A stretch of DNA of 64,000 bases from Comamonadaceae bacterium (GTDB lineage: Bacteria; Pseudomonadota; Gammaproteobacteria; Burkholderiales; Burkholderiaceae_C): the NCBI GenBank assembly GCA_947447985.1, contig CANFLX010000006.1, positions 1 to 64,000 of the forward strand, read 5' to 3'. The notes under the pieces are model-generated. The model saw only the letters and a program-made list of their open reading frames with translations, searched no databases and was not told the DNA's origin. How positions within the stretch are numbered: the first letter of the stretch is position 1; each line of letters opens with the position of its first letter. This document shows, piece after piece, positions 891-57,371 of the stretch. Position numbers and translations under genes: made by a program.

Positions 891-918
891 AACAGGGCTG
901 GTGGGTATACTTAAACCC

Positions 919-2803: not shown

Positions 2804-2830
2804 GCGCCGTTCTGCTGCGCGCCTTCCGCC

Positions 2831-4186: not shown

Positions 4187-4205
4187 GCTTCCCAAGGGGG
4201 GGCGC

Positions 4206-4931: not shown

Positions 4932-5040
4932 AGGACGGCCCGGTGGCATTTGAGAAGCTTGGGAGGATAGCGCCAAGCGTGGCATCATGGCGCGCTGCGC
5001 AGCGACCCCGACCCTGCGCCTTGTTCACGGAGACTGCCCC

Positions 5041-6513: not shown

Positions 6514-6536
6514 ATTCTGCATTCAAAGGTTTGTTC

Positions 6537-7382: not shown

Positions 7383-7405
7383 TCTGGGTCGTTTCAAACG
7401 CCGCG

Positions 7406-8173: not shown

Positions 8174-8176
8174 GGC

Positions 8177-9286: not shown

Positions 9287-9331
9287 GGATAATCCATTTT
9301 CTATCTTTTTGTGACGGGCCTTTTTCCTCCC

Positions 9332-11647
9332 ATGGCTTCTTTTGAACGTGACGCGACGTGCAGGTCGCCCGGTGCCGGCCTGCGGGCGGTGGTGGGCTGG
9401 CTCAGTCTGTGCGCGTTCGCGTGGAGCGCTGCGGCACAGGCACAGACGGTCCCCAAGAACGCGCCGCTTGTCCTGGAAGGCGACCGCCTGCAAAGCCGCA
9501 CCGACAGAGACGCCACCTTGGAAGGTGATGCAGAGCTGCGCAAGGGCGGCACGATTATTCGCGCCGATCGACTGGATTACGACATGCCGACCGACACGGC
9601 GCGCGCCACCGGGCATGTCTGGGTGCAGCGCAACGGCAACACCTACCAAGGCCCCTACCTGGAGCTGGGGATAGACGCGTTCCAGGGATTTTTTACCGCG
9701 CCCAGCTATGAATTCGGGCAAAACGGTGCGCACGGCCAGGCCACGCGGGCCGAGTTTGTCGACAAGGCCCACATGACGGTCTACCAGGCCAGTTACACCA
9801 CCTGCAAGCGCCAACCGGGCCCCGGCTGGTTGCCCGACTGGGTGCTAACCGCGGCACGCATCGACATCGACAACGACGAGGACATCGGTCTGGCACAAAG
9901 TGCGGTGCTGAGCTTCAAAGGATTTCCGCTCTTGCGCGTGCTGCCGATCAGTTTTCCCTTGTCCGAAAGGCGCAAGAGCGGCATGTTGTCGCCCACCCTT
10001 GGCCTGGACAATGCCAACGGTCTGGAGCTGTCCACACCGTATTACCTGAACATCGCACCCAATCGCGATGCGACCTTTACCCCCACCTTCATGACGGCAC
10101 GGGGGGTGAACTTGGGCACAGAGTTTCGCTACTTGGAACCCCAGTATTCCGGTACCGTCCGTTTGAGCTACATGCCCACCGATAAGCTGCGCGACGCGCA
10201 GCGCTGGGACGCCTCCATCGTCCACAACGCCAAGGTCGACGTGCCAGTGGGGCAGGTCACCTTGGCAGCGAACCTGAACCGGGTCAGTGACGACAACTAC
10301 TGGCGCGATTTCACCAACAGCAATGCGATCAATGCCGGTGGCGCCATTGCAGGAGCGACGCAACGGCTCTTGCCCGCAGAAATGGCCACCTCCTGGAGCC
10401 ACGGCGATTTTTCATCCACGTTCAAGGTCTTGAAGTGGCAGACCCTGCAAGACCCGACAGCCCCCATCGTTCCGCCCTATGACCGGGTGCCGCAGTGGAG
10501 CGGGCGTTACGCAAAAAGCAACACGCAAGGGGTGGATTGGTCGATCGATCTGGACATGACGCAGTTCCAGTCCGACCGCAATCTGACGCTGCAAGCCAAC
10601 GCCCAGCGGGCCTTTGGTCTGGCCCAGATCAGCTACCCCATGCTGCGCCCCGCGGGCTTTGTGACACCAAAGCTGCAATTGCACACCACGGGCTACCAGT
10701 TCGACGCCTTGGTGGCAGGCCAACAGACTGCGAGCAGCACGGTGCCCACCTTCAGCTTGGACAGCGGCCTGGTGTTTGAGCGCGAAGCCCGCCTTTTTGG
10801 ACGCAGCTTGATACAAACCCTGGAGCCTCGGGCGTTTTATGTCTACACACCCTTCCACGATCAAAGCCTGCTGCCCAATTACGACACGGGCGCCAACGAC
10901 TTTAATTTTGCAACCATCTACACCGAGAACGCCTTTGTCGGAAACGACAAAGTGTCCGACAACAACCTGCTGACCCTGGGGCTGACCACACGCTACATCG
11001 ACGCGGACAACGGCGCACAGCTCGCCCGATTCGGGCTTGCACAGCGTTTGCGGTTCCAAGACCAAAAAGTCACCTTGGACGGCAGCGGCAGCGGCGCAGC
11101 CTCGGGGGTGAGTGACATTCTGCTGGGCGCCGCCGCCAACCTCACGGACCGCTGGGTCCTTGACTCCACCGTGCAGTACAACGTGCGCAATGAACAATCC
11201 GTACGCGCAGTCATTGGCGCTCGCTACAGCCCCTCCAACTTCCGGGTTTTCAATGTTGCGTACACCTTCCAGCGTGACTTAAGCGAGCAAATTGACACCA
11301 GCTGGCAATGGCCACTGAGTGACTTGGGAGCAGCCCCAGAGACCGACCTTGCCGAAGGGCGTTATTACGCACTGGGTCGCCTGAACTACAGCCTGAGCGA
11401 CGGCCGCTTGGTCAATACGGTACTGGGCGTCGAGTACGATGCAGGTTGCTGGATTGGACGCATGGTGATGGAGCGTGTACAGACCAGCGCAGACACCTCG
11501 AACCAACGATTGATGTTTCAACTCGAGTTTGTCGGCTTTACCCGTGTGGGACTGAGCCCGGAAAAAACCTTGAGCTCCAACATTCCGTATTACCGCAATC
11601 TGCGTGACTCTGGGGCTGCCAGTAATACGATCCGAACCTATGAATGA
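9332..11647 (+). CDS. lptD: LPS-assembly protein LptD
   Basis: The outer-membrane beta-barrel that, with LptE, inserts lipopolysaccharide into the outer leaflet. A signal peptide covers about residues 15-37 (hydrophobic run, cleavage after AQA). The periplasmic OstA/LptA-like domain follows (LEGDRLQSRTDRDATLEGDAELRKG), then the large barrel with FPLSERRKSGMLSPTLG and GVEYDAGCWIGRMVMER, which carries a C-terminal cysteine. A CKRQPGPGWLPDW segment holds another cysteine of the disulfide network. ATG 9332 gives 771 aa; a GTG at 9311 is the alternative. The end overlaps surA. No lipobox is present. Confidence 0.95.
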   Translation: MASFERDATCRSPGAGLRAVVGWLSLCAFAWSAAAQAQTVPKNAPLVLEGDRLQSRTDRDATLEGDAELRKGGTIIRADRLDYDMPTDTARATGHVWVQRNGNTYQGPYLELGIDAFQGFFTAPSYEFGQNGAHGQATRAEFVDKAHMTVYQASYTTCKRQPGPGWLPDWVLTAARIDIDNDEDIGLAQSAVLSFKGFPLLRVLPISFPLSERRKSGMLSPTLGLDNANGLELSTPYYLNIAPNRDATFTPTFMTARGVNLGTEFRYLEPQYSGTVRLSYMPTDKLRDAQRWDASIVHNAKVDVPVGQVTLAANLNRVSDDNYWRDFTNSNAINAGGAIAGATQRLLPAEMATSWSHGDFSSTFKVLKWQTLQDPTAPIVPPYDRVPQWSGRYAKSNTQGVDWSIDLDMTQFQSDRNLTLQANAQRAFGLAQISYPMLRPAGFVTPKLQLHTTGYQFDALVAGQQTASSTVPTFSLDSGLVFEREARLFGRSLIQTLEPRAFYVYTPFHDQSLLPNYDTGANDFNFATIYTENAFVGNDKVSDNNLLTLGLTTRYIDADNGAQLARFGLAQRLRFQDQKVTLDGSGSGAASGVSDILLGAAANLTDRWVLDSTVQYNVRNEQSVRAVIGARYSPSNFRVFNVAYTFQRDLSEQIDTSWQWPLSDLGAAPETDLAEGRYYALGRLNYSLSDGRLVNTVLGVEYDAGCWIGRMVMERVQTSADTSNQRLMFQLEFVGFTRVGLSPEKTLSSNIPYYRNLRDSGAASNTIRTYE

Positions 11648-12968
11648 GCCATTGACCACCATGACTTTGAAACATTGCGCCGCAGCGGCCATCACCCTGG
11701 TAGTGCTGTTTACAGGGCTGACACCGGTGCGGGCACAGAGCAGCCAGGCGGCCGACTTTATTGTTGCGCTGGTCAATTCGGAGCCGATCACGGACGCTGA
11801 GCTGCAGGCCCAAATCAAACAAATGAAAGAGCAACGCGCACAGCAACGACAAAGCGTCCCGCCCGCTGGCGAACTGCGCAGCGCCGTGCTGGAGCGCATG
11901 ATCAGCGACCGCGCTCAACTGCAAGTGGCACGCGACATGGGTCTGCGCGCTGATGCCGCCACCATCGACCAGGCAGAAGCCAATTTGGCTGCGCAAAACC
12001 AGATTGATGTTGCGCAGTTTCGCAAGCTTCTAGAGCAGCGCGGCATGTCGTCTGCTGCATTTCGGGCTCAATTGGCGGATCAAATTTTGCTCAACCGCTT
12101 GCATGAACGCGAAGTGCTGTCCCGGGTGCGCGTGACCGACAAGGAAGTCGAAAATGCGCTGGCGGCACGGCAAGTTGCCAACACGGACCCCTTGTCACAG
12201 GAAATTAATCTCGCGCATTTGCTGGTCGGTTTGCCCGAAAAACCCAGCGCATCGCAAGTCGCGCAGGGGCAAGCCAAAGCACAACGCTTGCAAGCCCGTT
12301 TGCGGGCGGGCGAGAGCTTTGAATCACTTGTCAAGGAGCAGTCTGATGCGAGCCGGGAGTCTGGCGGTCAAATCGGACTGCGCCGCGCGGACCGTTATCC
12401 ATTGATTTTTGTCGAAGCAACCAAGGACTTAACGGTGGGGCAGGTCTCGGAGCCGGTGCGCTCGGATGCGGGGTTTCACCTGATCAAAGTCGTTGACCGC
12501 CGTGCCGGCAGCCTGGTGCAGACAATGACGCAAACCCATGCCCGCCATATCTTGCTGCGTCTGACTCCCGAACTCACCCAAACGCAGGCGCTGGCGCAGC
12601 TAACCCTGTTGCGTCAACGCATTGTGTTGGGTAGCACCAGTTTTGAGGCCGCGGCCCGTGAGGTGTCGCAAGACGCAAGCGCGCCACAAGGCGGCGACTT
12701 GGGATGGTCCAGTCCAGGCATGTTTGTGCCCGAATTTGAAGAGACCCTGGACCGGCTCAAGCTTCAGGAAATCGGCATGCCCATGGTCTCGCGCTTTGGT
12801 GTGCACCTGATGCAAGTACTGGAGCGCCGCACGGTGGAACTCACGCCCTCGCAAATGCGTGAGGCCATGCGTGCAGAGCTCCGCGCAAAGCGCACGGAAG
12901 AGACCTACCAGGCCTGGGAACGTGACGTCCGCAGCCGCGCGTTTGTGGAAATTCGCGAGCCTCAATAA
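11640..12968 (+). CDS. surA: Periplasmic chaperone/peptidyl-prolyl isomerase SurA
   Basis: A 442-residue periplasmic chaperone for outer-membrane proteins, including LptD. The signal peptide ends near VRA at residue 32. A SurA N-domain ([14 protein letters not shown]) is followed by two parvulin domains: the first around INLAHLLVG...[13 protein letters not shown], the second around [13 protein letters not shown]...[17 protein letters not shown]. The start ATG overlaps the lptD stop region, indicating translational coupling. The order lptD-surA-rsmA is the classic proteobacterial arrangement, but pdxA, usually between surA and rsmA, is absent here. Confidence 0.95.
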
Positions 12969-13006
12969 ATGGACTTTCGCATGTACATGCCCCGGGTAGT
13001 ACGCTG

Positions 13007-13777
13007 ATGCAGCACGTCGCCCGCAAGCGTTTCGGCCAGCACTTTTTGTCGGACGGCGGCATCATCGATGCAATTGTCGACGCTATCCAGCCACTGCCGG
13101 GCCAACACATGGTGGAGATCGGCCCGGGACTGGCGGCGCTCACGCAACCCTTGGTAGAACGGCTGGGCGCCCTGTCCGTGATTGAACTGGACCGCGACCT
13201 GGCGCAGCGCCTGCGCGGCCACCCGCAACTCACGGTGGTGGAGTCTGATGTGTTGCGTGTGGACTTTGCGGAGTTGGCGCGCACGCAGTGGCCAGGTTCG
13301 ACGGACAAATTGCGCGTCGTGGGCAACCTGCCGTACAACATCTCGACTCCGATTCTTTTTCACCTGTTGGATTACGTTGACGTGGTGCAGGACCAGCATT
13401 TCATGCTGCAGAAAGAGGTCATTGACCGCATGGTGGCAGCGCCCGATACCTCGGACTTCAGCCGCCTGAGTGTGATGCTGCAGTGGCGCTACGCGATGGA
13501 CGATGTGCTCTTTGTTCCCCCGGAAAGCTTTGATCCGCCACCCCGCGTTGACAGCGCGGTGGTGCGCATGGTGCCTTTGGCGGCGCCCCCCCACATTAAC
13601 GTGAAGTTGTTCAGTGAGTTGGTGCAAGTGGCCTTCAGCCAGCGCCGCAAATTGATTCGGCATACCCTGGGGCGCTGGCTCGAAGAAAAAAACTTTGCGG
13701 GGCATTTCGACCTGCAACGGCGGGCTCAGGAAATCGCAGTGGCGGATTATGTGGCGCTGGTTCAGGCGCTTGGTTAA
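13007..13777 (+). CDS. rsmA: 16S rRNA dimethyladenosine transferase RsmA (KsgA)
   Basis: Dimethylates A1518 and A1519 of 16S rRNA using SAM during small-subunit maturation. The start [16 protein letters not shown] is diagnostic. The SAM motif [11 protein letters not shown], the acidic VIELDRD, and the catalytic motif NLPYNIS followed by TPILFHLL are all present, as is the [10 protein letters not shown] block. Length (256 aa) is normal. It closes the lptD-surA-rsmA unit and is followed 27 bp later by a strong intrinsic terminator. Confidence 0.96.
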
Positions 13778-13797
13778 AGGCGGGACCAATTGGGCAT

Positions 13798-13826
13798 AAA
13801 AAAGCCCGCTTGCGCGGGCTTTTTTA
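13798..13826 (+). terminator. Rho-independent terminator after rsmA
   Basis: GCCCGC (13804-13809), loop TTGC, GCGGGC (13814-13819), preceded by six A's and followed by six T's. The stem can extend to 12 bp and could terminate transcription in both directions. It would end lptD-surA-rsmA on the plus strand and the barstar unit on the minus strand. Confidence 0.93.
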
Positions 13827-13856
13827 TACGAGCACGTGGACCCGCAAATAACGACT

Positions 13857-14069
13857 TTAAGCAGCTGCGAGCCAGTAACCCGCATTAAACGGGCTGCTCA
13901 TGCGCAACGCCAGGGGCGATACGTCAATCAAAAAGTCGCTGGGCAGCTTCTCGCCGCTGTCGGTATCCTCGGTGGCAGAAACTGCCACAGCGGCTTCACC
14001 GTTTGCCTGAATCGCCCGTTCTGCTTGGCTGGTTTGTGCAGAACGGGCTACAGAAAAGAATAGAAGCAC
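13857..14069 (-). CDS. Possible small ORF overlapping barstar gene end
   Basis: A 70-codon frame starting with GTG overlaps the last bases of the barstar-like gene and ends just before the rsmA terminator. The start of the product (LLFFSVARSAQ) is only weakly hydrophobic and the rest is polar. I do not recognise a family. Its only support is position, same strand and no leftover space before the terminator. It may simply be 3' untranslated sequence of the barstar mRNA. Confidence 0.25.
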   Translation of the reverse strand: MLLFFSVARSAQTSQAERAIQANGEAAVAVSATEDTDSGEKLPSDFLIDVSPLALRMSSPFNAGYWLAAA

Positions 14070-14449
14070 CGGAACGGTATCTTCCGCTCCCCCCAGTAGT
14101 CGGCCGTGTCGCGGAAGATATCGAGCAACTGCTCGCGCGCTTCTTTGTCAAACTTGGCGTTGGCTGGAATGTGCTCAAGCACAGCGATAAAGCCAGGCTG
14201 AGGGCCCGACTTGTGAACCGGGTCGGTCATGCTGTCGTACAGTGAGTCAAAGTTCTTGCCCGAGGTGGTGGCGAGCGTGAACTGTGCGCCGATCAGGTCG
14301 AGCACGTCTTGCTTGGTCTGGGCGCTGCCCAAATTAGCGTACAAGAAGTGGTGCCCCAAACCTTGGGCTGCTTCTTGCAAGTCCGACACGCGAAATGCGC
14401 GTATCGATTGAACGATATTCGTTCTTACGGTTCGAAGTGGTGTGTCCAT
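14048..14449 (-). CDS. Barstar-family ribonuclease inhibitor
   Basis: The 133-residue product matches the barstar fold. After about 40 residues it has TKQDVLDLIGAQF followed by the family hallmark SGKNFDSLYDSMTD (barstar's YGENLDALWDCLTG), then GFIAVLEHIPA and REQLLDIFRDTADYW. Barstar blocks barnase-type RNases by plugging the active site with this acidic helix. The first 30 residues are an extension relative to classical barstar (89 aa). The gene lies 32 bp downstream of a secreted barnase-like RNase, so it is presumably the cytoplasmic antidote for that enzyme. Confidence 0.85.
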   Translation of the reverse strand: MDTPLRTVRTNIVQSIRAFRVSDLQEAAQGLGHHFLYANLGSAQTKQDVLDLIGAQFTLATTSGKNFDSLYDSMTDPVHKSGPQPGFIAVLEHIPANAKFDKEAREQLLDIFRDTADYWGERKIPFRCFYSFL

Positions 14450-14481
14450 CCTCGATTCACTTTCATCAATAAAAATTCAAT

Positions 14482-14898
14482 TCAAGGCACGATCGTGCGA
14501 AAACTCGCATAGTGATCAGCCGTGTAGTAACAAGCGTCTGGTGCAGTGGCTGCGCCACCGCACACGATTCTTTGGGCCCCACGGTCTCGCGAGCCTGGCG
14601 TTTTAACGGTGTATTCCCGGTAATAGCCACGCTTTTGCATAGGCAAAAGTCGTTCGCGGTTACCGAAGACAACACCGTCTTTCTCATAAGGAAATGGGAC
14701 GCCACGTTGAATGTTGCGATAGGTCTCGACGCCGGGCGCAGGCAGAGCCTGCAGCGAAATCGTCGGAATTTGTCCGCTGTACGCTTGCGCCAACGGACTG
14801 CTCAACAGGCCGACCGACAGGAGGATGATCCCCCAGTTTTGCACCAAACTGGTGCATTGACCTGTCCAGCGCTTTACCACTTTGAGGCCGCAAACCAC
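14482..14898 (-). CDS. Secreted barnase/RNase Sa-like ribonuclease
   Basis: A 138-residue N1/T1-family guanyl-specific RNase. Active-site equivalents are Glu95 (YYREYTV), Arg110 (AQRIV) and His129 (YTADHYASF), in the same order and spacing as barnase Glu73/Arg83/His102. VVFGNRERLLP corresponds to barnase IFSNREGKLP. A hydrophobic stretch at about 22-36 with cleavage after AQA (39) predicts export. Four cysteines remain, two of them (Cys113, Cys123) in the catalytic part and possibly forming a disulfide. The start is a GTG with weak SD; another GTG lies six codons inside. The barstar gene follows directly. Confidence 0.85.
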   Translation of the reverse strand: MVCGLKVVKRWTGQCTSLVQNWGIILLSVGLLSSPLAQAYSGQIPTISLQALPAPGVETYRNIQRGVPFPYEKDGVVFGNRERLLPMQKRGYYREYTVKTPGSRDRGAQRIVCGGAATAPDACYYTADHYASFRTIVP

Positions 14899-15075
14899 GT
14901 AAAAACCCTGTCAACAATCAAAAAACTACCCAAAACCCAAGTTTCATTGTCGCTGATCCGGGGAAATTGCGCAATACCCCGCGGCCAAGACCACACAGAA
15001 AATTAAGGGTTTACCCCTTATTTTTCAGTTCAAGGCCTGGTTGGCTGTTCGGCGGGGGAAGACGGCGCGCCAGGG

Positions 15076-15414
15076 TCAGGGGTCGAGATGGCGCGTCAGT
15101 TGGTCGTTGCGGCTGTCGCCCAGGCCTTGGGGCCTGGGTTTGCGCACCGCGGGCTGGCCCAGAATACTGACAAAAAAGGCGTCGGCGCCGGCTTTGCCGG
15201 CGGCGTCCATGTGTCCGATCAAGGTGGCGAAATGCACGTCCGCCGCATCGGCCTCGGTGCTGCCAAAACGGCAGGCAAAGTCCCAGTAGTCCACGCCTTC
15301 AGGCAGTGCCGCGCGGCGCTGGCGCGCCACGTATTTGCGCACCTCGTGTTTGCTGGCGTCGAGCAGGCGGTCGCGGTTGCGGCCTTCAACCTGAAGTTGG
15401 AATAGTTTTTTCAT
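15076..15414 (-). CDS. DUF6172-like conserved protein
   Basis: A 112-residue soluble protein beginning MKKLFQLQVEGRNRDRLLDASKHEVRKYV, followed by RRAALPEGVDYWDFACRFG. I recognise this as the small conserved proteobacterial family DUF6172, which has no established function. It lies seven bases upstream of the maeB stop-side boundary and is on the same strand as, and downstream of, maeB, so it could be cotranscribed with it. Lysine/arginine-rich N-terminus; no signal peptide or membrane segment. The family assignment is from memory of the N-terminal motif. Confidence 0.75.
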   Translation of the reverse strand: MKKLFQLQVEGRNRDRLLDASKHEVRKYVARQRRAALPEGVDYWDFACRFGSTEADAADVHFATLIGHMDAAGKAGADAFFVSILGQPAVRKPRPQGLGDSRNDQLTRHLDP

Positions 15415-15420
15415 ACGGCC

Positions 15421-17778
15421 TTATCGCACCGCGTTGGCGTCTGCCACCGTCAGCGCAGTCATGTTGACGATGCGCCGCACCGTGGTACTGGCGGTCAGCA
15501 CGTGAACCGGTTTTGCGGCTCCGAGCAGGACCGGGCCGATGGCGATGTTGCCACCTGCAGCGGTTTTGAGCAGGTTGTAAGCGATGTTGGCGGCATCAAT
15601 ATTGGGCATGACCAGCAAATTGGCGTCGCCCTGCAGCGGGCTGTTGGGCATGAGGGCGGCGCGGGCTTCACCATCGAGCGCCACATCGCCATGCATTTCG
15701 CCGTCCACTTCCAGCCAGGGCGCGGTTTGTTGCAGGATCGCCAAGGTCTCGCGCATCTTGATCGCGCTGGGCTCGTTGCTGCTGCCAAAGTTGGAATGGC
15801 TCAGCAGCGCCGCTTTAGGCGCAATGCCAAAGCGCAGCATTTCTTCGGCGGCCATGACGGTAATGCGGGCCAATTCACCTGCCGTGGGGTCGTAATTGAC
15901 ATGGGTGTCGACGACAAACACTTGGCGGCCTGGCAGCATCAAACCGTTCATGCACGCGTAGATCGATACGTCATGCTTGCTTTCCAGCGGCGCCGAATGG
16001 CGCTTGCCAATCACCTGGTCGATGTAGTTCAAATGCAGCGCAGTCGTGCCCCAGGTGCCGCAGATCAGGCCGTCTACATCGCCTTTGTGCAGCAGCATGG
16101 AACCAATCAAGGTCAGGCGCCTGCGCATTTCGATCTTCGCCACCGGCACGGTGACGCCTTTGCGCTCCGCCATGCGGTGGTAGGTTTGCCAGAAATCGCG
16201 GTAGCGGTGGTCGTTTTCCACATTCACCACGGCGTAGTCCTGGCCCTCGCGCAGGCGCAGTCCGAACTTGGCGATGCGCTCTGCAATCACGGCCGGGCGG
16301 CCTATCAAGGTGGGCATGGCCAGGCCTTCGTCCACCACGATCTGGGTGGCGCGCAACACGCGCTCGTCTTCGCCCTCGGCAAAGGCCACGCGCTTTTTGA
16401 GCGCGTTTTTGGCCATCGCAAAAATCGGGCGCATGGTCGTGCCCGAGGCATAGACAAAGCTTTGCAATTGCTCGCGGTAGGCGTCCATATCGGCAATCGG
16501 GCGCAGCGCCACGCCGCTGTCGGCAGCCGCTTGCGCCACGGCCGGGGCGATTTTCATCATCAGGCGCGGATCAAAGGGCTTGGGAATCAGGTACTCGGGG
16601 CCAAACGCCAGCTGCTCACCGGCATACGCCGCTGCCACCACGTCGCTTTGCTCGGCCTGCGCCAGCTCCGCAATCGCGTGGACGGCGGCGATTTCCATCT
16701 CAATGGTGATGGTCGAGGCGCCCGCGTCCAAGGCTCCCCGGAAGATGTAGGGAAAGCACAAGACGTTGTTGACCTGGTTGTGAAAGTCACTGCGGCCGGT
16801 GGCCATAATGGCGTCGTCACGCACCGCCTTGACTTCGTCGGGCAGGATTTCAGGCGTCGGATTGGCCAGCGCAAAAATCAGCGGCTTGGCCGCCATGCTT
16901 TGCACCATGTCTTGCTTGAGCACGCCGCCCGCCGAGAGCCCCAGAAAAACGTCGGCACCGGCAATCACATCACGCAGGGTGCGCGCGTCGGTTTTTTGGG
17001 CAAATACTTCCTTGTCCACGTCCATCAGCTCGGCGCGGCCTTGGTAGACCACACCGGCCAGGTCGGTGACAAAAATGTTTTCGCGCGGAATACCCAGTTT
17101 GACCAACAGACCCAGGCACGCCAGCGCCGCAGCACCCGCGCCGGAGGTGACCAGCTTGATTTTCTTGGGATCTTTGCCCACCACCTTCAGGCCATTGAGA
17201 ATCGCCGCGCCCACCACAATCGCGGTGCCGTGTTGGTCGTCGTGAAAGACCGGGATCTTCATGCGTTCGCGCAACTTGCGCTCCACATAAAAACAGTCGG
17301 GCGCCTTGATGTCTTCGAGATTGACGCCACCAAAAGTGGGCTCGAGCGAGGCGATGATGTCCACCAGTTTGTCCAGATCGTGTTTTTCATTGATCTCAAT
17401 GTCAAACACGTCGATGCCGGCAAACTTCTTGAACAGCACGCCCTTGCCTTCCATCACGGGCTTGGCGGCCAGCGGTCCAATATCGCCCAGGCCCAGCACG
17501 GCCGTGCCATTGGTGATCACGGCCACCAGGTTGCCGCGGCTGGTGTACTTGAATGCGTTGTTGGGGTCTTTGACGATTTCTTCGCAAGGCGATGCCACAC
17601 CCGGTGAATAGGCCAGTGCCAGATCATGCTGGTTGATCAGCTGCTTGGTCGGAGTGACCGAGATCTTGCCCGGTGTGGGGAACTGGTGGTACTCCAGTGC
17701 CGCTTGGCGCAGTTGCGCCTTTTTCTCTAGTGCGTCAGCGTCGTGGTGGGGCGAGTTGGGGTGCGTATCGTGAGCCAT
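15421..17778 (-). CDS. maeB: NADP-dependent malic enzyme MaeB (fused to phosphotransacetylase-like domain)
   Basis: A 785-residue fusion that decarboxylates malate to pyruvate with NADP. The N-terminal malic part shows [54 protein letters not shown] and the Rossmann segment [16 protein letters not shown]. The C-terminal half (from about residue 450) is a phosphate acetyl/butyryltransferase-like domain, with [36 protein letters not shown] and [15 protein letters not shown]. In characterised MaeB proteins this second domain is regulatory (acetyl-CoA binding) rather than catalytic. Length and order are typical. Confidence 0.95.
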
Positions 17779-37285: not shown

Positions 37286-37354
37286 AATTTGCAACTTTAT
37301 ACCCCGCCACGGATACCCTTGAGGGCATAGGTTCTTCCAGCCCACAAAACAGAC

Positions 37355-38340: not shown

Positions 38341-39156
38341 TTATTTCCCACCAAAAATACGCTTGAAAAAACCTTGCTTGGGGGCTTCGATAAAGCGCAT
38401 GGGCTTGTCGACACCTAAGAAGCGGTCGATCACGTCTTTGTAGGCTTCTGCCACATCACTGCCTTCCATGTGAACCGCAGGCACGCCTTGGTTTGAGGCT
38501 TGCAACACCGATTCACTCTCAGGAATCACACCGATAAGTTTGATGCGCAAAATATCTTGAATGTCTTCCAAGGAAAGCATTTGGCCCTGGTCCACGCGCG
38601 CCGGGTTGTAGCGGGTGATGAGCAAATGCTCTTTGATGGGATCCAAACCCTCGATCGCTCGTTTGGTTTTGCTGGCCAACATGCCCAAAATCCGATCGGA
38701 ATCACGCACCGAAGAGACTTCGGGGTTGGTCACCACCAAGGCTTCATCCGCGAAATGCATGGCCATCAGCGCGCCGGTTTCGATGCCTGCAGGCGAATCA
38801 CAGACGATGTACTCAAAGTCCATCGCAGCCAAGTCGTTGAGTACTTTTTCGACGCCTTCCAAGGTAAGGGCATCTTTGTCGCGCGTTTGCGATGCGGCAA
38901 GCACGTAAAGGTTGTCGCACTGCTTGTCCTTGATCAAGGCCTGGTGCAAATTGGCTTCACGCTGAATAACGTTGATCAAGTCGTACACCACGCGGCGCTC
39001 GCAACCCATGATCAAGTCCAAGTTTCGCAAGCCCACATCAAAGTCAATCACCGCGGTTTTGTGGCCGCGCAAAGCCAGACCCGAAGCAAAACTGGCACTG
39101 GTCGTCGTCTTGCCTACGCCGCCTTTGCCTGAGGTGACCACAATGATTTTTGCCAT
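38341..39156 (-). CDS. minD: Septum site-determining ATPase MinD
   Basis: A 271-residue deviant-Walker ATPase. [13 protein letters not shown] near the N-terminus is the deviant P-loop, with FDVGLRNLD and CDSPAGIE as switch motifs. The C-terminal amphipathic helix FKRIFGGK targets the membrane. It recruits MinC to the poles to restrict FtsZ ring placement. It sits second in minCDE, transcribed leftward away from the AT-rich candidate origin. Confidence 0.97.
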
Positions 39157-39199: not shown

Positions 39200-40015
39200 T
39201 TACGATTTCAACGCTTCGATGATGAGTTTCTCTTTTCCATCGTCGCTCAAACGAATTTGTGCTGGTTTTCCAAGCACATCGCCTTCGAGTTCTTTTTCTG
39301 TGGTGCGGTAGATCCCTGCAATCGAGACCAACTCGGGCTCCATGCACAAAGCAAAAATGCGGGCACCGGCATTGCCTCGGGCACCGGCCATGGCTTTGCC
39401 ACGCAAAGGCGCGTACACATGGATGTTGCCATCGGCAATCACCTCTGCACCCCGATTCACCATAGCCAGAACGACCAAATCGCCACCACGGGCATACACC
39501 TTTTGACCTGAGCGCAAGGGCTTGGTTACCACCATGGTGGGCACCTGCACAGGATCACGGGTCGCGGGCGCTGCCGGTGCGCTGGGTTTGGCTGCATGCT
39601 CTGCTGCCGCAACGCTTGCTACAGGCCCAGCTTTCTGGGGGATAGATGACGCCACGCGGCGTGGCTCGGGTGGTGCTTCGGTCAAACCCAGGCGCTGCGC
39701 GACCGAAAGACTCGCGGCATCCAAACCCCGCACAGCCATCGGAACCAGTTTGCAGGCACCCAAGGCCTTGGTGAAGAGCTCCCACTGAGGATGCGGCAAG
39801 CTGATGCCAGTGTGGGTAAAGTCGATGACGACGCCATCGGTGTCAAAAAAATCAGGACTCTCGCCTTTGGGGCCGAAGTTTTTGCTGAGTTCAGCGGCCG
39901 CAATGGCCAAATCACCGGTTTTCAGGACCAGAGCGACCAAAGTGAGCTGAGCACTTTTCAGTTCAAACGCCGCAGGAGCGGCACCCGAAGGTGTGGCAGA
40001 AAAAAGGTCCGTCAC
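39200..40015 (-). CDS. minC: Septum site-determining protein MinC
   Basis: A 271-residue FtsZ antagonist. The N-terminal domain (FELKSAQLTLVALVLKTGDLA) is followed by an alanine/proline-rich linker of about 60 residues. The C-terminal beta-helix has LRSGQKVYARGGDLVVLAMVNRGAEVIADGNIHVYAPLRGKAMAG (the MinD-binding face) and ARIFALCMEPELVSIAGIY. It begins with GTG at 40015. The linker is longer than in E. coli MinC (231 aa). The promoter should lie in the 403-bp gap upstream. Confidence 0.95.
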   Translation of the reverse strand: MTDLFSATPSGAAPAAFELKSAQLTLVALVLKTGDLAIAAAELSKNFGPKGESPDFFDTDGVVIDFTHTGISLPHPQWELFTKALGACKLVPMAVRGLDAASLSVAQRLGLTEAPPEPRRVASSIPQKAGPVASVAAAEHAAKPSAPAAPATRDPVQVPTMVVTKPLRSGQKVYARGGDLVVLAMVNRGAEVIADGNIHVYAPLRGKAMAGARGNAGARIFALCMEPELVSIAGIYRTTEKELEGDVLGKPAQIRLSDDGKEKLIIEALKS

Positions 40016-40418
40016 AGGATTTTGGGTGAATGTGGCACAAGGCGATTTTACCGTATGCAGGCTCTTGACCGAAGAAGATGTTCAATGGTCTGAAGTCGTC
40101 TGTCTTTGTCTCTTTTGGTGTTGTTCTCTTATTGTCTTAATTCTTTATTTAAAGAGTAGTAGTAGTAGTTAAGGAGCCGCTGTTTCTGTGGACAAGTCAA
40201 ATTTTTTATTTAATTTCAAGGACTTACAGTCTGACAAAGCTTGTGCATGGCGCTGTTTTTTGTGTAAGGCTCATGAGGATAAGGTTGTGATTTAGCGCTG
40301 CGCTGTGCATAAGTAGGTTCTTGTTCGGGTCTTATCCACAGGGTTTTCAAAGCCTTGAAGCGGGCTCTGTGGTACTGTCAAATGTGCCTTAGGCATCAAA
40401 AAGTGAAGGAACTGGATC
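40016..40418. other. Candidate chromosomal origin (oriC-like region)
   Basis: This 403-bp gap between divergent minC and the NnrU gene holds DnaA boxes: TTATCCACA (40332-40340, plus, perfect), TTATGCACA (40304-40312, minus) and TTGTCCACA (40187-40195, minus). A one-mismatch TTATCCTCA lies at 40274-40282 (minus). On the minus strand the order is box, GC-rich GCGGCTCC, four CTA repeats, then an AT-rich tract. That is the box / GC spacer / DnaA-trio / unwinding order described for bacterial basal unwinding systems. It also contains the promoters of both neighbours. No coding sequence is seen. Confidence 0.72.
40157..40168 (+). repeat. DnaA-trio-like TAG repeat
   Basis: Four tandem TAG triplets followed by TTAA lie 18 bp from the DnaA box at 40187-40195. 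They are flanked on the other side by TTCTTTATTTAAAG-type AT-rich DNA. This is the 3'-GAT-5' repeat that DnaA binds on single strands in published origin models. Confidence 0.65.
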
Positions 40419-40997
40419 ATGGCCTTGCTGATTTTTGGGTTGTTGGTATTTTTGGGGACGCACGCTTTGCGGTTTGGAGGCGATGCGCGGCGTGATGCGC
40501 TCATTGCGCGTTTAGGTGCTGGGCGCTTCAAAGGCTTGTACTCCGCGCTCTCGGCCATTGGTCTGGTATTGATCGTTCTTGGTTTTGGTATGGCCCGCGA
40601 GATGCCTGTTCTGTTGTGGGTACCACCTGCGGGCATGCGGCATCTGACTTTTTTATTGATGCTTGTTTCGATGGTGCTATTGGCAGCCGCTTATGTACCA
40701 CGCAACGCAATTCGCGCCCGTCTGCATCACCCTATGGTGCTCTCTGTCAAGGTCTGGGCCTTGGCCCATTTGATCTGCAACGGTACGCTGGCCCATGTTG
40801 TCTTGTTTGGTGCCTTTTTGCTGTGGAGTGTGGTGCTGTTCAGGTCATCTCGCCGTCGGGATGCGCTCCAGGAGGTGCAATACGCTCCAGGCGAAACCGT
40901 GCCCACCTTGATCACCGTGGGTGTTGGGGTATTCGTTTGGCTGGTGCTTCTGGGCTGGTTGCACGGAATTTTGATTGGCGTGCGTTTGATTGCCTGA
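40419..40997 (+). CDS. NnrU family membrane protein
   Basis: A 192-residue integral membrane protein with about five or six helices. It begins MALLIFGLLVFLGTHALRF and has the family blocks GGDARRDALIARLG, FKGLYSALSAIGLVLIVLGFG, SVKVWALAHLICNGTLAHVVLFG and FRSSRRRDALQEVQYAPGE. NnrU proteins are linked to denitrification regulons in some bacteria, but the family is broad and the biochemical role is unknown. No nitrogen-oxide genes are nearby. It runs rightward from the candidate origin. Confidence 0.9.
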   Translation: MALLIFGLLVFLGTHALRFGGDARRDALIARLGAGRFKGLYSALSAIGLVLIVLGFGMAREMPVLLWVPPAGMRHLTFLLMLVSMVLLAAAYVPRNAIRARLHHPMVLSVKVWALAHLICNGTLAHVVLFGAFLLWSVVLFRSSRRRDALQEVQYAPGETVPTLITVGVGVFVWLVLLGWLHGILIGVRLIA

Positions 40998-51705: not shown

Positions 51706-53700
51706 ATGCTTTATCCCCAACAGTTTGACGTCATCGTCGTCGGCGGCGGCCACGCCGGGTGCGAGGCTGCGCTGGCGGCCGCGCGCATGGGCAGCAAGAC
51801 GCTGCTGTTGACGCACAACATCGAGACCCTGGGGCAGATGAGTTGCAACCCCTCGATTGGCGGCATCGGCAAAGGCCATCTGGTCAAAGAGGTCGATGCC
51901 TTGGGCGGCGCCATGGCCTTGGCAACCGACGAGGCAGGTATTCAGTTTCGCATCCTCAATTCCAGCAAGGGCCCGGCTGTGCGCGCCACACGTGCGCAGG
52001 CCGACCGGGTGCTGTACAAGGCCGCGATCCGGCGCATGCTGGAAAACCAGCCCCATTTGTCCATCTTTCAGCAAGCGGTGGACGACTTGCTGGTCGAGGG
52101 TGACCGGGTGGTGGGCGCTGTCACGCAAATTGGTTTGAGCTTTCGCGCCAAAACGGTGGTGCTTACCGCCGGCACTTTTTTGGACGGCAAGATCCATGTG
52201 GGCATGAACCACTACGCTGCCGGACGCGCGGGCGATCCGCCTGCGGCACGTTTGAGCGCGCGCCTCAAAGAGCTCCAGCTTCCGCAGGGCCGCCTGAAAA
52301 CCGGCACGCCACCGCGCATTGATGGCCGCAGCATCGACTTCAGCAAATGCCTGGAGCAACCCGGCGACGGCATGCCCGGCGGCATGAGCCCGGCGATGCC
52401 GGTGTTCAGCTTTATGGGGCGTGTGGAGCAGCACCCGCAACAAATGCCGTGCTGGATCACGCACACCAATGCGCGCACGCACGAGATTATTCGCAGCGGC
52501 TTTGACCGCAGCCCCATGTTCACCGGCAACATCGAGGGCGTGGGCCCGCGCTACTGCCCCAGCGTGGAAGACAAGGTCAACCGCTTTGCCGACAAAGAGA
52601 GCCACCAGATTTTCCTGGAGCCCGAGGGCCTGACCACCCACGAGTACTACCCCAACGGCATTTCGACCAGCCTGCCCTTTGACATCCAGTACGACCTGGT
52701 GCGCAGCATGGCGGGCTTGGAAAACGCCCATATTCTTCGCCCCGGTTATGCCATTGAGTACGACTACTTTGACCCGCGTGGTCTGAAAAGCAGTTTCGAG
52801 ACGCGCCATATTGGCGGCTTGTTTTTTGCCGGGCAGATCAACGGTACCACCGGCTACGAAGAGGCTGCGGCCCAAGGCCTGTTTGCCGGCGTGAATGCGG
52901 CGCTGCAAGCGGGCGCTCGCACGGCCTGGAGCGCAGACACCTGGCTGCCTGGACGGGACGAGGCCTACCTCGGCGTGCTGGTGGACGACCTGATTACCAA
53001 AGGCGTGACCGAGCCTTACCGCATGTTCACCAGCCGCGCGGAGTTTCGCTTGCAGCTGCGTGAGGACAACGCCGATGTGCGCTTGACCGAAACCGGGCGC
53101 GCCCTGGGCTTGGTCGATGACGCCCGCTGGGAGGCGTTTTGCCGCAAGCGGGAGGCTGTTTCACGTGAAACCGAACGCCTGCGCTCGATCTGGGTCAACC
53201 CCAACAACCTGCCTGCCGAAGAGTCGCAGCGGGTGCTGGGCAAATCCATTGAGCACGAATACAACCTGGCCGACTTGCTGCGCCGCCCCGATGTGCGCTA
53301 CGCCGACTTGATGGGCATGGACGGCGGACGCTATGCGGATGCCGCACTCACGGCCGCTGCGGATGGCACCGCCTCCGATGTGTTTGTGGCCAGCGTGATT
53401 GAGCAGGTAGAGATTGCTGCCAAGTATTCGGGTTACATCGAGCGCCAGAAAGAAGAAGTCGGCCGCGCGGCCTATTACGAGAACTTGCGCCTGCCTGCAG
53501 AGTTGGACTACATGCAGGTGTCGGCCCTGAGCTTTGAAGCACGCCAGCGGCTGAACCAGCATCGCCCCGAAACGCTGGGCCAGGCGTCTCGCCTCTCGGG
53601 CATCACGCCCGCCACCATCTCGCTCTTGTTGATTCACCTGAAAAAAGGCAATTTCCGTGAATTTGCCACGCCCGTGCCCTTGCCGCAGGAGCATGCGTGA
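51706..53700 (+). CDS. mnmG: tRNA uridine-5-carboxymethylaminomethyl modification enzyme MnmG (GidA)
   Basis: A 664-residue FAD protein that with MnmE modifies U34 of certain tRNAs. [21 protein letters not shown] is the FAD site. [58 protein letters not shown] and [18 protein letters not shown] are MnmG hallmarks. A near-consensus parS site is embedded at codons near residue 484. It opens mnmG-rsmG-lysE-parA-hydrolase-parB, the block usually near bacterial origins. The GTG of rsmG overlaps its stop. Confidence 0.97.
53157..53172. other. parS-like centromere site 1 (in mnmG)
   Basis: TGTTTCACGTGAAACC matches the ParB consensus TGTTTCACGTGAAACA at 15 of 16 positions. It is read in frame inside mnmG. 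parA and parB lie 2-3 kb downstream, which supports function. Confidence 0.9.
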
Positions 53701-54350
53701 GCAAGGCTTTGGAGGCGCCGCTGCGCGCCGGCCTGCAGTCGCTGGGCTTGGATCTGAATGACGCGCAGGTCGAGGCCCTGCTGGATTACCTCAGCCTGAT
53801 TCAAAAATGGACCCGGGTGTACAACTTGACGGCGGTGCGCGATCCGCAAGAAATGCTCACCCACCACTTGCTCGACAGTTTGGCCGTCATTGGCCCTATG
53901 CGTCAGCAGCTGGCTGAACGGGGTTTGAGCGAGCCGCTTCGGGTGTTGGATGTGGGCTCGGGTGCGGGCTTGCCGGGTGTGGTGTTGGCCATCTGCTGCC
54001 CTGCCCTGACGGTGCATTGTGTGGACACGGTGGCGAAAAAAGCGGCCTTTGTTCAGCAGGTCGCAGTGAGCCTGAAGTTGCCCAACTTGCGCGGCATCCA
54101 CGCGCGGGTGGAGAGTTTGACGGAGCCCTACGACCTGGTCTGCTCGCGGGCCTTTGCGTCGCTGGTGGATTTCACGACCTGGTCGGTTGCCGCCTTGGCG
54201 CCTACAGGGGTATGGATGGCGATGAAGGGCAAAGACCCGCAGGCGGAAATAGACGCCTTGGACGCAGCGCTGCACGTGTTTCACGTGGAACCGTTGCAGG
54301 TGCCGGGCCTGGAGGCCGATCGCTGCCTGGTCTGGATGCGTCGCGCCTGA
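53697..54350 (+). CDS. rsmG: 16S rRNA m7G527 methyltransferase RsmG (GidB)
   Basis: A 217-residue SAM enzyme that methylates G527 of 16S rRNA; its loss gives low-level streptomycin resistance in other bacteria. [18 protein letters not shown] is the SAM motif, preceded by [28 protein letters not shown] and followed by [12 protein letters not shown] and MAMKGKDP. It starts with GTG overlapping the mnmG stop (GTGA), so translation is coupled. A second parS-like site lies near its 3' end. Confidence 0.96.
54277..54292. other. parS-like centromere site 2 (in rsmG)
   Basis: TGTTTCACGTGGAACC agrees with the ParB consensus at 14 of 16 positions and keeps the central TTTCACGTG. It lies about 1.1 kb from site 1. 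Confidence 0.8.
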
Positions 54351-54391
54351 GCCTTGCTAACGTAAACTCGACCCCTCACTTCAGGACTTCC

Positions 54392-55006
54392 ATGTTTGGC
54401 GTTAGCGATTACGGCACCTTTGTTGTCACCATTTTGGTGTTTTTGCTGATTCCCGGCCCGGGCAATCTGGCCCTGGTGCTGTCGACCAGCAAGGGCGGTG
54501 TGCGCGGCGGTTTGGCGGCCACTCTGGGGGTGATTGTGGGCGACCAGGTGCTGCTGTGGTTGGCGGTGGCGGGTGTGGCGGCTTTGCTGACCGCCTACCC
54601 TGCCGCCTTTCAGGTAGTGCAGTGGGTCGGTGCGGGGTATTTGGCGTGGTTGGGCGGTTTCATGCTCACATCGAAAGCAGGCGCGCCGTCGGCCATCGAT
54701 ATCCGCCCCCACCATTACCTGCGCCAAGCCCTGTTCATCACCCTGCTCAACCCCAAGGCGATATTGTTTTACATGGCTTTTTTCCCTTTGTTTGTGGATC
54801 CGGTGCAGCAACAAGGCTTGATCACCTATGGCGTGATGGCCGCCACGATTGCGGCGCTGACCTTTGCTTATGGAATGGGCGCTACTTTGCTCACCCACTT
54901 TTTTGCCGAACGCGTGCGTGCCAACCCTTTGATTGGCCGCGTCTTGGAAAAAGTAGCCGGTGTTTGTTTGATCGGCTTTGGCCTCAAGCTGGTGGCCTCG
55001 CAATGA
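54392..55006 (+). CDS. LysE/RhtB family amino acid exporter
   Basis: A 204-residue membrane protein. FLLIPGPGNLALVLSTSKGGVRGGLAATLGVIVGDQVLL is the LysE/RhtB signature, and KAILFYMAFFPLFVDP the second. About six helices are present. It probably exports an amino acid such as homoserine, threonine or lysine; the ligand is unknown. ATG 54392 is chosen, as the longer frame overlaps rsmG. It lies between rsmG and parA on the same strand with 41 bp upstream and 70 bp downstream. Confidence 0.9.
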   Translation: MFGVSDYGTFVVTILVFLLIPGPGNLALVLSTSKGGVRGGLAATLGVIVGDQVLLWLAVAGVAALLTAYPAAFQVVQWVGAGYLAWLGGFMLTSKAGAPSAIDIRPHHYLRQALFITLLNPKAILFYMAFFPLFVDPVQQQGLITYGVMAATIAALTFAYGMGATLLTHFFAERVRANPLIGRVLEKVAGVCLIGFGLKLVASQ

Positions 55007-55019
55007 TGCGGGCACGATC

Positions 55020-55035
55020 CGTTCCACGTGAAACC
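55020..55035. other. parS-like site 3 (upstream of parA)
   Basis: CGTTCCACGTGAAACC keeps the CACGTGAAAC core and matches ParB consensus at 13 of 16 positions. It is intergenic, 42 bp before parA, so ParB bound here could also repress parAB. Confidence 0.65.
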
Positions 55036-55076: not shown

Positions 55077-55874
55077 ATGGCCAAAATTTTCTGCATTGCG
55101 AACCAAAAAGGTGGCGTTGGCAAAACGACCACCACGGTCAACCTGGCTGCGGGTTTGGCCAAGTTGGGTCAGCGCGTGCTGATGATTGATTTGGATCCCC
55201 AGGGCAATGCCACCATGGGCTCGGGCGTGGACAAGCGCAGCATTCAGCTCAGCGTGTACGACGTGCTGCTTGAGTCGGCCAGTGTGGCGGAGGCGCGTGT
55301 TCGCAGCGACAAACTGGTGGCTGCGGGCTGCAGCTACGACATCCTGGGCGCCAACCGCGAACTCGCGGGCGCGGAAGTGGAAATGGTGGAGTTGGAACGC
55401 CGTGAGCGCCGCCTCAAAACGGCCCTGGCGGAGGTCGACAAGGACTACGACTTTGTGCTGATCGACTGCCCGCCATCGCTGTCCATGCTGACCCTCAACG
55501 GCTTGTGCTGCGCCGATGGCGTGGTGGTGCCCATGCAATGTGAGTACTTTGCCCTGGAAGGCCTGACCGACCTGGTCAACACCATCAAACAGGTCAAGGC
55601 CAACTTGAACGACGACTTGCGCATCATCGGTTTGCTGCGCGTGATGTTTGATCCGCGCATCACCTTGCAGCAGCAGGTGAGCGAGCAGCTCACCGCCCAT
55701 TTTGGCGACAAGGTGTTTGAGACCATCATCCCGCGCAATGTCCGCTTGGCCGAGGCGCCTAGCTATGGTTTGCCTGGCGTGGCGTTTGACCCCAATTCCA
55801 AAGGTGCGCAGGCTTTTGTGGCCTTTGCGGCAGAGATGCTGCGCCGCTTGCCCAACGCACACCAAGACCGATGA
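55077..55874 (+). CDS. parA: Chromosome partitioning ATPase ParA (Soj)
   Basis: A 265-residue Walker ATPase that moves ParB-parS complexes. The deviant P-loop [19 protein letters not shown], switch I region IDLDPQGNATMGSGVD and LIDCPPSLSMLTLNGLC are complete. The absence of a DNA-binding N-terminal extension marks it as chromosomal (type Ib) ParA. Its stop overlaps the hydrolase start by four bases (ATGA), and parB follows that gene. Confidence 0.97.
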   Translation: MAKIFCIANQKGGVGKTTTTVNLAAGLAKLGQRVLMIDLDPQGNATMGSGVDKRSIQLSVYDVLLESASVAEARVRSDKLVAAGCSYDILGANRELAGAEVEMVELERRERRLKTALAEVDKDYDFVLIDCPPSLSMLTLNGLCCADGVVVPMQCEYFALEGLTDLVNTIKQVKANLNDDLRIIGLLRVMFDPRITLQQQVSEQLTAHFGDKVFETIIPRNVRLAEAPSYGLPGVAFDPNSKGAQAFVAFAAEMLRRLPNAHQDR

Positions 55875-56428
55875 GCACCCCTGTCTTGTTGCTGCCCGGT
55901 TGGCAGAACTCCGGCCCCGCCCATTGGCAAAGCCGCTGGGAAGCCCTCTACGGCTACCAGCGCGTGGAGCAGCACGACTGGATGCAACCCCTGCGCGGCG
56001 ACTGGATCACCCGGCTCGAAGAAGTGGTGCTTGCACAGCCCTCTCCTTGCGTTCTGGTGGCCCACAGCCTGGGCTGTTTGCTGGTATCTGCTTGGGCAGC
56101 CTGCTCGCGCAACACGCACCGCGTGCAAGCGGCCTTGCTGGTGGCCCCGGGTGATGCAGAGCGTGAAGAATTGCGTCCGGTGCTGCACAGCTGGTCGCCC
56201 GTGGTGATACAGCGCCTGCCCTTTGCCAGTGCGCTGGCGGGCAGCCACAACGATCCCTATTGCAGTCTGGAGCGTGCGCAGTGGTTTGCACAGGCCTGGG
56301 GTGCGCAGTGGCATGACTGCGGACATGCCGGACATATCAACGCGGATTCGCAGTTAGGCGACTGGCCCGATGGCCACGCACTGCTGCAGTCTCTCCTCTC
56401 CAACAAGGAAGCCCACCATGGCCACTAA
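55871..56428 (+). CDS. RBBP9/YdeN-type alpha/beta hydrolase between parA and parB
   Basis: A 185-residue serine hydrolase. LLLPGWQNSGPAHWQSRWE is the RBBP9/YdeN start, VLVAHSLGCLLVSAW the nucleophile elbow, SHNDPYC the acid region and GHAGHINADSQLGDWPDGH the histidine. It overlaps parA by four bases and parB by eleven, so the three genes are translationally locked. The activity is unknown; the family includes small esterases. Its place inside parAB is unusual, as most chromosomes have the two genes directly adjacent. Confidence 0.9.
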   Translation: MSTPVLLLPGWQNSGPAHWQSRWEALYGYQRVEQHDWMQPLRGDWITRLEEVVLAQPSPCVLVAHSLGCLLVSAWAACSRNTHRVQAALLVAPGDAEREELRPVLHSWSPVVIQRLPFASALAGSHNDPYCSLERAQWFAQAWGAQWHDCGHAGHINADSQLGDWPDGHALLQSLLSNKEAHHGH

Positions 56429-57371
56429 AAAACCCAAAGGCCTCGGAATGGGCCTCGAAGCCCTGCTGGGCCCCAAAGTCCAGGACACTGCGCCTGACAC
56501 CTCCCTGGACGCCAGCCTGCCCACCACCCTGCTGTTGGGCGACATGGTCGCAGGCATCTACCAGCCGCGCACCCACATGGACGAAGGTGCGCTCTACGAG
56601 TTGGCCGAAAGCATCAAAGCCCAAGGCATCATGCAGCCGATTCTGGTGCGAGAGCTCGACGCCGCACGCGCCAATGCACACCGGCCCGAGGGCTCGAGCC
56701 GCCCGGTGTATGAAATCATTGCCGGCGAGCGGCGATTTCGTGCGGCCAAGCTCGCGGGCCTGGACCGGGTTCCGGTGCTGGTGCGCAATGTGGCGGACGA
56801 AGCGGCCGCCGCCATGGCCTTGATCGAGAACATGCAGCGTGAAGACCTCAATCCGCTCGAAGAAGCGCAGGGCCTGCAGCGTTTGATCAAAGAATTTGGC
56901 CTGACCCATGAGCAGGCCGCGCAATCGGTGGGCCGTTCGCGCAGTGCGGCCAGCAACCTCATGCGGCTGCTCAACCTGGCTGAGCCGGTGCAGTCCATGC
57001 TGATGGCTGGTGACATTGACATGGGCCATGCCCGCGCCCTGCTCGCGCTGGACCGCGCCACGCAAATCACCGCCGCCAACCAGATTGCCAACAAAAAGCT
57101 CTCGGTGCGCGAAGCCGAAAGCCTGGTGAAAAAACTGGGCGCCGAGTTTTCTTTGGTAGCCTCCAAGCCGAAAAAAGAGAAGTCGCGTGACCTGAAAAGG
57201 GTTGAGGAAGAGCTGTCGGACTTGTTCCAAGCCCAGGTCGAAGTGCTTATCAAAAAAAGAATTAAACGAGCAGGCCGCATCGAAGAAATGGGCGAAGTGG
57301 TCATTCAATTTGGATCACTCGAAGCGCTCAATGGCTTGATTGAGCGCCTTGCGCCCAACGGTAACCGTTAG
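56418..57371 (+). CDS. parB: Chromosome partitioning protein ParB (Spo0J)
   Basis: A 317-residue CTPase clamp. The N-terminal ParB/Srx domain has DMVAGIYQPRTHMDEGALYELAESIKAQGIMQPILVREL and the CTP/arginine patch GERRFRAAKLAGLDRVPV. The HTH domain is NPLEEAQGLQRLIKEFGLTHEQAAQSVGRSRSAASNLMRLLNL. A C-terminal dimerisation part follows. Start is ATG 56418 (MATKKPKGLGMGLEALLG), overlapping the hydrolase. The parS-like sites within 3.5 kb upstream are its expected targets. Confidence 0.97.
   Translation: MATKKPKGLGMGLEALLGPKVQDTAPDTSLDASLPTTLLLGDMVAGIYQPRTHMDEGALYELAESIKAQGIMQPILVRELDAARANAHRPEGSSRPVYEIIAGERRFRAAKLAGLDRVPVLVRNVADEAAAAMALIENMQREDLNPLEEAQGLQRLIKEFGLTHEQAAQSVGRSRSAASNLMRLLNLAEPVQSMLMAGDIDMGHARALLALDRATQITAANQIANKKLSVREAESLVKKLGAEFSLVASKPKKEKSRDLKRVEEELSDLFQAQVEVLIKKRIKRAGRIEEMGEVVIQFGSLEALNGLIERLAPNGNR

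Follow-up and report, generated by a model that had tools for sequence, protein, structure and literature searches.

A predicted chromosomal origin of replication apart from dnaA, between minC and nnrU, in a Rhodoferax-type bacterium

Results

A compact module lies between minC and nnrU

The DNA analyzed here (the window) covers positions 1 to 64,000 of contig C6 (105,889 bp), part of a draft genome of 2.85 Mb in 86 contigs. In a MinC comparison, the titles of its closest relatives included Rhodoferax and uncultured Comamonadaceae. The original prediction for this DNA had placed an origin-like region between min genes on the left and mnmG-rsmG-parA-parB on the right, and Pfam bore this setting out for minC, nnrU, mnmG, rsmG, and parB. 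For minD and parA, Pfam returned the MinD/ParA fold in both cases, and the names follow from position. The parS-like sites that had been described 13 to 15 kb away were also recovered, four of them where 0.15 would be expected by chance in the window. These four sites (53157-55035) fall in or near mnmG, rsmG, and the beginning of parA.

TABLE 1 Features of the minC-nnrU gap and its flanks in the window, and module pairs of genus g56
Feature	Position	Strand	Remarks
minD	38341..39156	-	Pfam MinD/ParA fold; named by its place after minC
minC	39200..40015	-	Pfam MinC_C and MinC_N; directly beyond the AT-rich side of the module
AT-rich tract	about 40110..40154		73% A+T; presumed site of first unwinding
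oriC core module (predicted)	40128..40348	-	About 220 bp; match to model R1, 118.8 bits
DnaA-trios, CTACTACTACTACT	40155..40168	-	(CTA)4 on minus strand; 3'-GAT-5' on plus strand
Spacer from R3 to trios	40169..40186	-	18 nt, 50% G+C
DnaA box R3, TTGTCCACA	40187..40195	-	Exact; adjoins trios
IHF-like site, TAAGTCCTTGAAA	40214..40226	-	One mismatch to TAAnnnnTTGATW
Weak box, TTATCCTCA	40274..40282	-	One mismatch; at a conserved AGTTRTYCA-like element
DnaA box R2, TTATGCACA	40304..40312	-	Exact; mostly near-invariant in the module alignment
DnaA box R1, TTATCCACA	40332..40340	+	Exact; orientation opposite to R2 and R3; alignment conserved around TGTGGATAA
nnrU	40419..40997	+	Pfam NnrU; on the box side of the module
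mnmG (gidA)	51706..53700	+	Pfam GIDA
parS-like site	53157..53172	+	1 mismatch
parS-like site, further	53630		3 mismatches
rsmG (gidB)	53697..54350	+	Pfam GidB
parS-like site	54277..54292	+	2 mismatches
parS-like site	55020..55035	+	3 mismatches
parA	55077..55874	+	Pfam MinD/ParA fold; named by its place before parB
parB	56370..57371	+	Pfam ParB_N, HTH_ParB, ParB_C
Module pair, G409:C1	4615156 and 4635857
Module pair, G350:C1	98493 and 118968
Module pair, G282:C22	58169 and 68615
Module pair, G202:C1	48937 and 95364

Read along the minus strand, the gap presents R1 (reversed), R2, the weak box, the IHF-like site, R3, an 18-nt spacer, the trio run CTACTACTACTACT, and an AT-rich tract, in that order. 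All three exact DnaA boxes and the one-mismatch copy that had been claimed were located, and the claimed succession of box, spacer, CTA repeats, and AT-rich DNA was confirmed, with base compositions as given in Table 1. The run of DnaA-trios, at least three of which mark a DnaA-trio element, stands on the expected strand as (CTA)4. An IHF-like site among DnaA boxes is a mark of E. coli-type origins, and here the site is predicted from sequence. A mark of a DnaA-dependent oriC, box clustering above chance level within AT-rich intergenic DNA, was likewise found: across the 106-kb contig, the gap scores highest for boxes and contains the most AT-rich stretch of 250 bp, and the rest of the 64 kb contains one other TTRTNCACA box, at 1295. 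In Markov simulations of the window, single boxes occurred at 3.8 per simulated window, three TTRTNCACA boxes within 160 bp were seen in 2 of 300 runs, and a box followed after 10 to 22 nt by (CTA)3 was seen in none of 300.

The module is conserved as a unit upstream of minC

The original prediction had suggested looking for the boxes and the CTA repeat in relatives, and both are kept upstream of minC. Within the window's genus, the module was present at this place in 23 of 24 loci, the window included (genome G007, which gave no minC match, is outside this set); in the sole miss, L013, the contig stops 139 bp upstream of minC. None of six loci from other families of the order carried it there. 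Among 80 named loci the module was found in 39, each with a copy ending 86 to 226 bp from the minC match. The 41 misses came mostly from other genera, e.g., Acidovorax, Variovorax, and Simplicispira, and include one locus titled Rhodoferax (L215, 40% MinC identity), two titled uncultured beta proteobacterium (L147 and L156), and two cut short upstream (L158 and L175).

Of the 23 genus modules, 21 have (CTA)3 without interruption; the other two, and most of the printed named-locus variants, have one triplet changed, usually the third. To describe conservation across the whole unit, we aligned 58 modules, which remained of 69 sequences after removal of two chance pattern hits (L070 and L075), one expanded repeat (L063), and eight sequences of more than 90% identity. 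Invariant or nearly invariant bases fell in R1, R2, the weak box, a CACA element, the IHF-like site, R3, and the trios. Of these, the R3 CACA (or AACA) and the trio run had served to select the modules, and the remaining elements had not. The IHF consensus TAAnnnnTTGATW (PMC10380432), searched with C or T at its first position, recurred at one and the same module place: 32 of the 58 modules match it exactly there, and 53 do when up to one mismatch is allowed, compared to no exact match and at most three one-mismatch matches at six control offsets. The spacer between R3 and the trios measures 18 nt in 37 of the 58 modules and 14 to 16 nt in 6; one module gave no spacer value.

Some loci depart from the single compact form. 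In L063 (G190:C21), the trio run beside an origin-like module is expanded to 21 CTA units (476-538), and tandem duplicate modules lie upstream of minC in two Rhodoferax-type loci, L011 (G014; 2450-2673 and 2899-3122) and L179 (9054-9275 and 9584-9802).

The module is separated from dnaA

As had been claimed, no dnaA lies nearby: the gene is absent from the window and from the entire 105,889-bp contig, which extends 40 kb to the left of the module and 65 kb to its right. The genome's only dnaA match is on contig C57, and on that contig the module model found no match. Four relatives place the two on one map, namely G001 (module at 59.6 kb, dnaA at 0.5 kb), G006 (598.4 and 653 kb), G388 (1,958.7 and 2,017.7 kb), and G165, a member of the window's genus (286.9 and 272.1 kb). 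The predicted separation of origin and dnaA is thus also seen in these relatives, at 54 to 59 kb in G001, G006, and G388 and at 13 kb in G165. We found neither a close cluster of three exact boxes nor a (CTA)3 in the dnaA regions of G001, G006, and G388. Across four Rhodoferax segments (835,713 bases, including four dnaA regions), each segment gave one module match, and in four Rhodoferax genomes there was no model match at dnaA up to an E value of 10, on which ground we rejected a second origin at dnaA in Rhodoferax.

Gene order suggests that dnaA of the window's genome lies beyond the left end of C6. Positions 877 to 16,833 of the window match G165:C11 at 226 to 255 kb in inverted orientation, and this G165 stretch ends about 16 kb before dnaA. 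The inversion implies that one of the two genomes was rearranged near the origin. Between gyrB and minC, G001:C1 carries two blocks (5.4 to 37 kb and 38.5 to 55.6 kb; about 32 and 17 kb) that are largely absent from G165, where their sole counterpart is one protein match of 58% identity to the second block. These blocks go with a dnaA-origin distance of 59 kb instead of 13 kb.

The module is found throughout the family at changing addresses

A sequence model of the module, for which some of the matched genomes had themselves supplied sequences, found it in 382 of 399 sampled family genomes and in 135 of 141 genera (E ≤ 0.001). In a sample of the order, 53 of 150 genomes matched, 4 of them in the family; the 49 matches among 146 genomes of other families had weaker scores (best E value, 1.9e-14).

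We then placed the module relative to dnaA in 82 genomes, comprising 80 plus G001 and G006; these were drawn from the best matches listed and not at random, so the sample favors strong matches. Among the matches listed, the module followed dnaA at a distance of at most 1 kb in 32 of the 82 (17 genera), lay more than 1 kb from dnaA on the same contig in 38, and was on a separate contig in 12. The detached modules on the same contig were 7.6 to 283 kb from dnaA, excepting two genomes that span contig ends (G293 and G161); both were included in the 38 on the basis of raw distance, and G293 is probably adjacent. In nine of the dnaA-adjacent loci that we fetched, dnaN follows. The original prediction had presented separation as unusual against the usual place next to dnaA; the separation stands, and its rarity does not, given that just 32 of these 82 genomes, among the matches listed, have the module adjacent.

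Detached modules have many different neighbors: minC in Rhodoferax and in genus g104, mnmG in G274, nnrU in G101 (whose 3-kb locus lacks minC), minD in G052, a pterin-binding MetH-like gene in G278, Spy-like and GAF/PAS genes in G307, an Hsp70-like gene in G170, and siderophore-interacting and glutaredoxin genes in G409. It is because these neighbors differ that we speak of repeated relocation. The DnaA tree, on which we did not base this conclusion, has five changes between the adjacent and detached states on the best tree and five to six in bootstraps, of which its well-supported branches force just one; 4 of its 34 rows were left out, and 18 further genomes are absent from it. Differing neighbors may reflect either a moving origin or genes rearranged around a fixed one.

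An oriC would be expected once per chromosome. The window's genome has one module match, and at least two were found in 121 of the 382 matching family genomes. Among the matches listed, 21 two-module genomes had known places. Their layouts include close tandem pairs (e.g., G307, G234, and G340), pairs that flank dnaA on either side (G376 and G313), and, in genus g56, two complete modules in inverted orientation 10 to 46 kb apart (Table 1). Copying followed by loss would be a natural route for relocation. We tentatively propose that the oriC of this family is a self-contained cassette of about 220 bp, consisting of boxes, IHF site, and trios, that has repeatedly been copied or moved around dnaA, over distances of up to about 280 kb, to new addresses that include minC, mnmG, nnrU, minD, metH-like, and Spy-like genes. 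Chromosomes with two cassettes, such as the inverted pairs of g56, may be present-day intermediates, with both origins usable, and detachment need not cost the trio system. We regard this proposal as a whole as plausible, if slightly short of an even chance.

GC skew minima coincide with the module in three relatives

A skew minimum at about 40.2 kb had been named as a check on the original prediction, and it did not appear: the window's contig has its raw minimum at 11,270, its fitted change lies 27.5 kb from the module, and the module fits 4.7 log units worse. The genome is an 86-contig draft with weak skew and a rearranged left flank, and we discarded the weak and shifted skew of the window and its contig as proof of an origin.

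The same check in seven relatives gave a divided result, with three minima within 1 kb of the module, three displaced by 22 to 32 kb, and one near dnaA. The first three minima were taken within fetched stretches of 120 or 400 kb. In G165 the raw minimum (286,330) and fitted change (286,001) fall next to the module start (286,872), and dnaA (272,070) fits the skew 10.4 log units worse. In two members of another genus, the module is directly upstream of minC (by Pfam in G303 and by eye in G424). The raw minimum of G303 (706,453) is 932 bp from the module start (707,385) and its dnaA (526,970) is 179 kb off, with a wide bootstrap interval of 522,501 to 707,501; in G424 the minimum (2,120,016) is 987 bp from the module start (2,121,003) and dnaA (2,404,137) is 283 kb off.

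In G001, G006, and G388, both estimates were shifted from the module towards dnaA, the raw minimum by 22 to 28 kb and the fitted change by 23 to 32 kb; the module fit 5.1 to 7.7 log units worse than the fitted change. Along the sampled chromosome of G006, the skew changes sign near 0.6 to 0.62 Mb, the region with both module and dnaA, with exceptions at 700 to 740 kb, 1.0 Mb, and 3.86 Mb. These three genomes are syntenic and therefore amount to about one observation. Their displaced minimum falls at the blocks largely missing from G165. As the full cause of the displacement, however, the two blocks were rejected, because their removal left minima at 37,315 (G001), 748,239 (G006), and 1,980,991 (G388); they explain the displaced skew only in part. 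Given that block removal left the minimum off the module, we put weight for this clade on G165 and on a gene-wise fit. When only conserved genes were used (48, 48, and 38 genes in G001, G006, and G388), the module came within 0.2 to 0.5 log units of the best place and dnaA was 4.1 to 4.5 log units worse; the best place was still 6 to 9 kb from the module, on the dnaA side (G165 coordinates).

In the seventh relative, G409 of genus g56, the minimum is close to dnaA and at least 144 kb from both modules of this genome, which lie 157 to 178 kb from dnaA. This may reflect either a recent relocation or the presence of a second origin at dnaA.

Discussion

The minC-nnrU gap as a probable detached oriC

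Given that the whole module is conserved in relatives and that skew minima fall at it in G165, G303, and G424, we concluded that the minC-nnrU gap is very probably the chromosomal oriC of this Rhodoferax-type bacterium, detached from dnaA. The original reading of the gap as origin-like is upheld by the same two lines of evidence. We infer that the window's own genome uses this origin. DnaA would bind R1, R2, and R3, and IHF would bend the DNA between R2 and R3 and so bring the boxes together. R3 would then guide DnaA across the spacer onto the plus-strand 3'-GAT-5' trios, forming a filament that would open the AT-rich tract on the minC side. Helicases would be loaded at the opened tract, forks would leave both ways, and ParA-ParB-parS, 13 to 17 kb to the right, would segregate the copied origin.

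We weighed three other explanations. The module could be a recent or secondary origin, with the long-term or main origin of G001-type Rhodoferax 22 to 32 kb towards dnaA, the region to which the skew of G001, G006, and G388 points by both minimum and fitted change. We consider this improbable. In 180- to 280-kb segments of these three genomes, the module is the top box cluster, the most AT-rich place, and the only model match; the displaced place coincides with the blocks largely missing from G165, whose own minimum is at the module. Moreover, conserved genes alone fit the module nearly as well as the best place, and the three genomes count about once.

Marginally less probable still is that the module is a DnaA-binding control site, either a datA- or DARS-like sink or a DnaA-controlled minC/nnrU promoter, with the working origin at dnaA. 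Its position in a divergent promoter gap and the G409 minimum would suit such a role, and E. coli datA is likewise described as having DnaA boxes with an IHF site between them. Against this, neither a close cluster of three exact boxes, a (CTA)3, nor a module match was seen around dnaA in G001, G006, and G388, and C57 gave no module match; the minima of G165, G303, and G424 are at the module; and the same module lies directly downstream of dnaA, the usual place of oriC, in 32 of the 82 placed genomes among the matches listed. A chance cluster of boxes with a simple repeat, for which the expected frequency of single boxes could be cited, has a negligible probability in view of the simulations of the three-box cluster and the box-trio pair, and is ruled out by conservation of the module in 135 of the 141 genera sampled.

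Comparison with known origins

oriC usually adjoins dnaA, though not necessarily (PMC10225481), and origins apart from dnaA are already known, with E. coli (PMC8287927) and Bordetella pertussis (PMC9584773) as described cases. The literature that we found, mostly at the level of titles and abstracts, did not mention the module, its minC address, or its repeated relocation; DoriC may hold single predictions. Relative to that literature, what is new is a conserved origin core whose address changes, which retains its DnaA-trios even away from dnaA, and which frequently gives two matches in a genome. This bears on the question of how an essential origin can move. With one module beside dnaA in some genera and far from it in others, and with possible two-copy intermediates, relocation becomes testable by replication profiling. 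Genomes numbered from dnaA would not start at the origin in many members of the family, and these origins may escape prediction programs that depend on dnaA or on a spacer of at most 16 bp.

The nearest comparison is within the family. The dnaA-adjacent modules of related genera (e.g., G120, G337, and G204) can be aligned with the window's module end to end in the rows in hand, and share its box spacing, IHF-like site, and trios; they differ in address, beside dnaA there and beside minC in the window. The B. pertussis origin is on the gidA side. In its described position it resembles the present case, lying away from dnaA, and the center of rearrangement in that species is reported to be offset from dnaA towards the DoriC origin (PMC9584773).

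In layout the module resembles the basal unwinding system (BUS) described for Bacillus subtilis and other bacteria by Pelliciari et al. (2021; PMC8287927), in which a DnaA box, a spacer, and a run of 3'-GAT-5' trios on one strand are followed by an AT-rich tract, and it may open in the same manner. It differs in having a single box beside the trios, where a tandem set is the most frequent arrangement in that account, and in its 18-nt spacer, compared to a published peak at 10 to 13 bp. That search was limited to trios within 16 bp of the box (PMC8287927), and the module, although BUS-like in layout, falls outside this limit.

With the E. coli oriC, the module shares its detachment from dnaA (PMC8287927), an IHF site, which is predicted here, and gidA (mnmG) in the neighborhood, 11 kb away in the window. 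The immediate neighbors differ, being gidA and mioC in E. coli (PMC10225481) and minC and nnrU here. The original prediction had likened the arrangement to E. coli, which holds for the separation and not for the trios: the window's module keeps a strong trio run, whereas the BUS score of E. coli is described as relatively weak (PMC8287927). It offers a counter-example to the E. coli-based suggestion, made in that study, that a split between oriC and dnaA accompanies divergence from trio-based opening (PMC8287927).
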